64,000 nucleotides of DNA from Stenomitos rutilans HA7619-LM2 (GTDB taxonomy: Bacteria; Cyanobacteriota; Cyanobacteriia; Leptolyngbyales; Leptolyngbyaceae). The translations under genes and the position numbers were made by a program. Within the stretch, counting starts at the first letter, position 1, and each line of letters opens with the position of its first letter. Positions 54,048-54,097 of this stretch are shown here, piece after piece. The stretch covers positions 1-64,000 of the forward strand of contig JAHHIE010000028.1 in NCBI GenBank assembly GCA_019358945.1, given 5' to 3'. The notes beneath the pieces were generated by a model that was not told the origin of the DNA, did not search any database, and saw only the letters and a program-made list of their open reading frames with translations.

Positions 54048-54097
54048 TACTACAAACATAATACAAAATACTACAAGGTGTCAAGAGCGTACTACAA
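54048..54097 (-). promoter_or_regulatory. tRNA-array promoter with three TACTACAA operator repeats at 21-bp spacing
   Basis: TACTACAA at 54048, 54069 and 54090; candidate -35 TTGACA on minus strand (54084-54079). Confidence 0.7.

Follow-up and report, generated by a model that had tools for sequence, protein, structure and literature searches.

A phased four-site operator at the trn promoter of a cyanobacterial tRNA array, predicted to bind the repressor TrcR

The tRNA array and its genomic setting

The window analysed here, a stretch of 64,000 nucleotides from Stenomitos rutilans HA7619-LM2, contains 33 tRNA genes between 49990 and 53779, all on one strand and predicted to form a single transcription unit. 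Directly upstream of this trn operon, as in Anabaena, lies a gene encoding an HNH endonuclease. The main features of the locus are:

49990–53779, minus strand: trn operon, 32 tRNA genes predicted by ARAGORN and one by Rfam
53794–53805, minus strand: boxA-like antitermination element GAACCTTGAAAA, shortly ahead of the first tRNA
53828–54019, minus strand: leader ORF of 63 aa located between the operator and the first tRNA, with a GAGG ribosome-site-like sequence
54198–54728, minus strand: gene for an All8564-homologous HNH endonuclease (PF01844 and PF14279), 81% identical to its pCC7120delta counterpart

The gene found by Rfam and missed by ARAGORN is located at 50159–50232 (minus strand), and a further tRNA-like stretch inside the array (52817–52896, minus strand) scored 28.1 bits against the Rfam threshold of 29. 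Elsewhere in the window, at 35800–35850 on the plus strand, there is a match to the nitrogen-stress RNA NsiR1 (RF02399), which is known from heterocyst-forming cyanobacteria; its score of 40.4 bits barely exceeds the gathering score of 39. A sequence-only reading of this DNA had pointed to the plasmid-borne tRNA operon of Anabaena, but the plasmid location does not carry over: dnaA, sufB/D, a class-V aminotransferase gene (SufS-type) and the urease alpha gene share the window, so that the array is most likely chromosomal here, unlike that of Anabaena. In the relative Kovacikia minuta, the array is carried on a replicon of 1.2 Mb that is recorded as a plasmid.

Elements similar to the boxA-like sequence were found in most related loci. 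Since GAACCTTGAAAA is identical to the boxA of the cyanobacterial rRNA ITS spacer (PMC8461337), antitermination of the long untranslated trn operon is likely. The 63-codon leader ORF gave no sign of protein-level selection in the window lineage (pN/pS 0.98), and we rejected it as a selected peptide there. In another cyanobacterial lineage (L040–L045), the trn leader contains a different ORF of 51–53 codons (MILFLRHPKSDSWNFSWDRRR...), located 68 bases downstream of the −35 box; with an SD-like sequence and a pN/pS of 0.31, which indicates selection, it is likely to be a real leader peptide inside a tRNA operon.

Operator repeats and their layout across lineages

The sequence-only reading had reported copies of TACTACAA at 54048, 54069 and 54090, in steps of 21 and 21 bp, together with a minus-strand TTGACA beside the middle copy. 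We confirmed the three copies at 54048–54055, 54069–54076 and 54090–54097, and the hexamer runs from 54084 to 54079, between sites 1 and 2. Read on the minus strand toward the tRNA array, which is the functional orientation, TACTACAA becomes TTGTAGTA. A fourth, near-perfect copy that had been overlooked is present at 54059–54066 (TAATACAA; TTGTATTA on the minus strand, matching 7 of 8 bases). The operator region, AAAAAAAGTTGTAGTACGCTCTTGACACCTTGTAGTATTTTGTATTATGTTTGTAGTATGAG when read toward the tRNAs, thus comprises three perfect TTGTAGTA sites, one TTGTATTA site and a perfect TTGACA, with the sites flanking the −35 box and overlapping the −10 region:

54099–54105, minus strand: A7 tract, a conserved A-rich stretch of the promoter alignment, just upstream of site 1
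54090–54097, minus strand: operator site 1, TTGTAGTA, 5 bp upstream of the −35 box
54079–54084, minus strand: −35 box TTGACA
54069–54076, minus strand: operator site 2, TTGTAGTA, within the −35/−10 spacer
54059–54066, minus strand: operator site 3, TTGTATTA (7/8), overlapping the presumed −10
54058–54063, minus strand: presumed −10 hexamer TATTAT, with a 15-bp spacer
54055–54060, minus strand: alternative −10 TATGTT, with an 18-bp spacer
54048–54055, minus strand: operator site 4, TTGTAGTA, close to where transcription is expected to start

The A7 tract is UP-element-like and may function as such.

A chance origin of the repeats was rejected. Exact copies of TACTACAA numbered 6 against 0.78 expected (both strands of the 64-kb window), two of the others, at 54537 and 55068 on the minus strand, also being near this locus. 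Apart from the TACTACAA triple, the window has no evenly spaced (9–60 bp) 8-mer triple, and such triples were absent from all 100 sequences simulated from the window with an order-3 Markov model. In the 7.28-Mb genome, the 21-bp pair of TACTACAA had no second occurrence.

We aligned the promoters that follow trn-linked HNH genes in named plasmids and in relatives, which gave 33 distinct promoters. TTGACA was present in all 33. Relative to this −35 box, site 1 was found at −13/−14 in 32 of the 33, corresponding to five or six bases before TTGACA, while site 2 was found at +7 to +9 in 30, site 3 at +17 to +21 in 31, and site 4 at +27 to +32 in 30. Counted from site 1, sites 2, 3 and 4 are therefore displaced by roughly two, three and four helical turns. 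The four TTGTAGTA-type half-sites of the window have offsets of 0, 21, 31 and 42 bp, and the arrays of other lineages have steps of about 21, 11–12 and 11 bp. Hence the exact 21+21 spacing, with sites 1, 2 and 4 all perfect, is the form of one lineage: the three exact copies of the original claim stand, but the layout is one of four phased sites. In Nostoc, site 3 holds the published −10 box TAGTAT at 17 bp from TTGACA, as is also seen in pCC7120delta (L012), which has the same promoter pattern and the published −10 at a 17-bp spacer. Other lineages likewise carry TAGTAT at the −10 place with spacers of 16–18 bp. The corresponding TATTAT of the window lineage has a spacer of 15 bp (14 bp in one relative), and, whether 15 or 18 bp, the predicted −10 spacing of this lineage is further from the ideal than that of Nostoc.

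We also searched 392 genomes of the phylum for the promoter pattern while ignoring the HNH gene, using the reversed pattern as a control. This search identified 19 matches in 14 genomes, compared with 1 for the control. At least three tRNA genes were located downstream in 14 of the 19 matches, the window counted, and at least one predicted tRNA in 17.

TrcR as the predicted repressor

In Anabaena PCC 7120, the ribbon-helix-helix repressor TrcR (All0854) silences the trn operon of plasmid delta, which has 26 genes, by way of TGTAGTAT, a sequence overlapping the −10 box TAGTAT, as shown by EMSA, footprint, qRT-PCR and reporter experiments (PMC10272220). TrcR protein falls upon chloramphenicol treatment and translational stress derepresses trn; direct TrcR targets include All8564, the product of the HNH gene beside the operon, and the published autoregulatory motif is ATACTACACTTGTATTAC (PMC10272220). 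The sequence-only reading had taken the repeats for a repressor's operator at the promoter of a cryptic tRNA operon like that of Anabaena 7120. This proposal was well founded, because the window matches this system in its site, its HNH neighbour and a TrcR-like gene of the genome, and these matches allow the repressor to be named as TrcR. The trn operon of Anabaena (on plasmid delta, and also called the L-array) has several features in common with the system described here: an HNH gene followed by a tRNA array, the TTGACA hexamer, sites of the TTGTAGTA type across the −10, a boxA-like element before the first tRNA-Asp, and a TrcR gene with a palindromic autoregulatory box. The two differ in several respects. 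The array here has 33 tRNA genes whereas the Anabaena trn operon has 26, and the leader is about 260 nt long with an ORF, compared with about 80 nt in Anabaena. Sites 1, 2 and 4 are perfect and at exact 21-bp steps in the window, whereas in Anabaena trn only site 1 is perfect and sites 2–4 match 7, 7 and 6 of 8 bases, with steps of 21, 12 and 11 bp.

Only one TrcR-family gene was found in this genome (L004:1134-1466). A TACTACACTTGTATTA box, the core of ATACTACACTTGTATTAC, is located 47 bp before its start, and boxes of this autoregulatory type were present in 75 of the 86 TrcR-family loci examined, a set in which some genomes are counted twice. In many of these loci, those of Anabaena species among them, an oppositely oriented HNH gene lies close by; in the Anabaena all0854/asr0855/alr0856 region, trcR is likewise divergent to an HNH gene. 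We refer to the product of the candidate gene as TrcR-like, its orthology to All0854 resting on family, synteny and autoregulatory box. It scored 13.5 bits against Pfam RHH_1 (cut-off 20.5). The AlphaFold monomer model, with a mean pLDDT of 73, contains two helices and leaves the ribbon unresolved; a Foldseek search with this model gave no informative structural match, and a sequence search of the PDB was likewise uninformative. The family also has a conserved C-terminal beta-rich domain (residues 59–104 of the candidate) with an invariant C77 and a CxLTGxxI motif, which could be a sensing or degradation domain.

Taken with the Anabaena precedent, the repeats very likely constitute the operator of the minus-strand trn promoter, which TrcR encoded elsewhere in the genome would bind to silence the array. 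TrcR dimers would line up on one DNA face from the −35 box through the spacer and the −10 region to the start site, and their occupancy would shut RNA polymerase out of the promoter. When translation elongation is blocked, TrcR protein would drop, the promoter would open and the tRNAs would be transcribed, with the boxA element probably aiding read-through. We infer TrcR binding at this locus, cooperativity along one DNA face and the role of boxA. Multi-site operators of ribbon-helix-helix proteins such as MetJ, Arc and the plasmid omega proteins consist of short half-sites about one helical turn apart, bound by neighbouring dimers; their sequences are unrelated to the TTGTAGTA sites, and cooperativity here is only presumed. 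The autoregulatory site ATACTACACTTGTATTAC has the same half-site and the same presumed repressor, but its half-sites form an inverted pair whereas the four at the trn promoter are direct. The regulon does not appear to be wholly conserved: for rtcB and rsgA, both TrcR targets in Anabaena, the promoter flanks examined in this genome had no clear TrcR site.

An alternative to TrcR, which we consider improbable, is that the operator, though genuine, naturally binds another ribbon-helix-helix protein, with TrcR secondary. A candidate would be the divergent TrcR paralogue that adjoins the trn-linked HNH gene in relatives (L031–L036), and the window DNA is homologous to one such locus up to within about 12 nt of the paralogue start, with an ATG GAT ACA CGC start kept. 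However, the paralogue is absent from this genome and broken in several relatives, yet the operator is intact, and in Nostoc similarly organized loci lack a local copy. The homology of the window to the paralogue locus reaches about the paralogue start (around 55117, plus strand), beyond which the sequences diverge, and a local paralogue seems to have been lost in the window. A small plus-strand ORF at 55095–55325 was rejected as a local repressor gene, having no family match and no convincing similarity to TrcR.

Assignment of the sites to the HNH gene instead of the tRNA operon, whether as a 3′ end, a terminator or a nuclease target, is very hard to sustain. The sites begin only 103 bases past the HNH coding match, and the HNH gene is itself a TrcR target, but the distance between HNH gene and sites varies among loci from 15 to more than 500 bp, whereas the association with TTGACA, the −10 and downstream tRNAs is constant. 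Furthermore, none of the 24 trcR-linked HNH genes had trn promoter sites beside it, and some matches of the promoter pattern had tRNAs but no HNH match in the flank examined. We therefore rejected this assignment. An activator or a BlaI/CopY-type repressor recognizing a similar TACTACA-TGTAGTA box is also most improbable and was rejected: BlaI/CopY operators typically have TACANNTGTA cores, whereas the half-sites at the trn promoter all point the same way, none facing another, and cover the −35/−10 region, and the published TrcR mechanism already accounts for the same promoter in Anabaena.

The HNH leader and implications for stress regulation

The HNH gene has a regulatory region of its own, in which we identified the following features:

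55025–55075, minus strand: second TrcR-type operator, before the HNH unit, with TACTACAAGTGTAGTA, TTGTAATA and TACTACAG
54803–55018, minus strand: small ORF of 71 aa upstream of the HNH gene
54742–54779, minus strand: terminator-like hairpin (CCCCCGC...GGGGG) followed by a T-run, between the 71-aa ORF and the HNH start codon

The small ORF is conserved in 25 trn-linked loci with a pN/pS of 0.61. It had no match in Pfam or NCBIfam, and the leader DNA of this region had none in Rfam; it may encode a leader peptide or else a small protein. In the HNH-derived set, 38 of 44 HNH genes were preceded by a similar hairpin, as were 24 of 25 trcR-linked HNH genes, the misses being mostly distant or truncated HNH matches and, in two cases, visible hairpins that the pattern did not capture. 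The inner-stem bases of the hairpin differ among lineages. This arrangement suggests attenuation of the nuclease gene, perhaps via ribosome stalling. We tentatively raise the possibility that the locus has two translation-sensing layers, namely a cooperative, helically phased and deeply conserved four-site TrcR operator giving switch-like release of trn, and a ribosome-sensing attenuator made of the small ORF and hairpin at the HNH nuclease gene.

The TrcR–trn system itself is already known, and the new elements are the phased arrangement of four sites, its occurrence in multiple lineages and the location of the array, most likely on a chromosome. The regular layout common to the 33 promoters appears to be undescribed, the main text of PMC10272220 naming one site. 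The occurrence of the same promoter design in several cyanobacterial families indicates that the TrcR–trn stress system is not peculiar to Nostoc plasmids, and the four-site layout provides a concrete prediction, accessible to mutation, of how tight silencing and sharp release of the tRNA array would be achieved.
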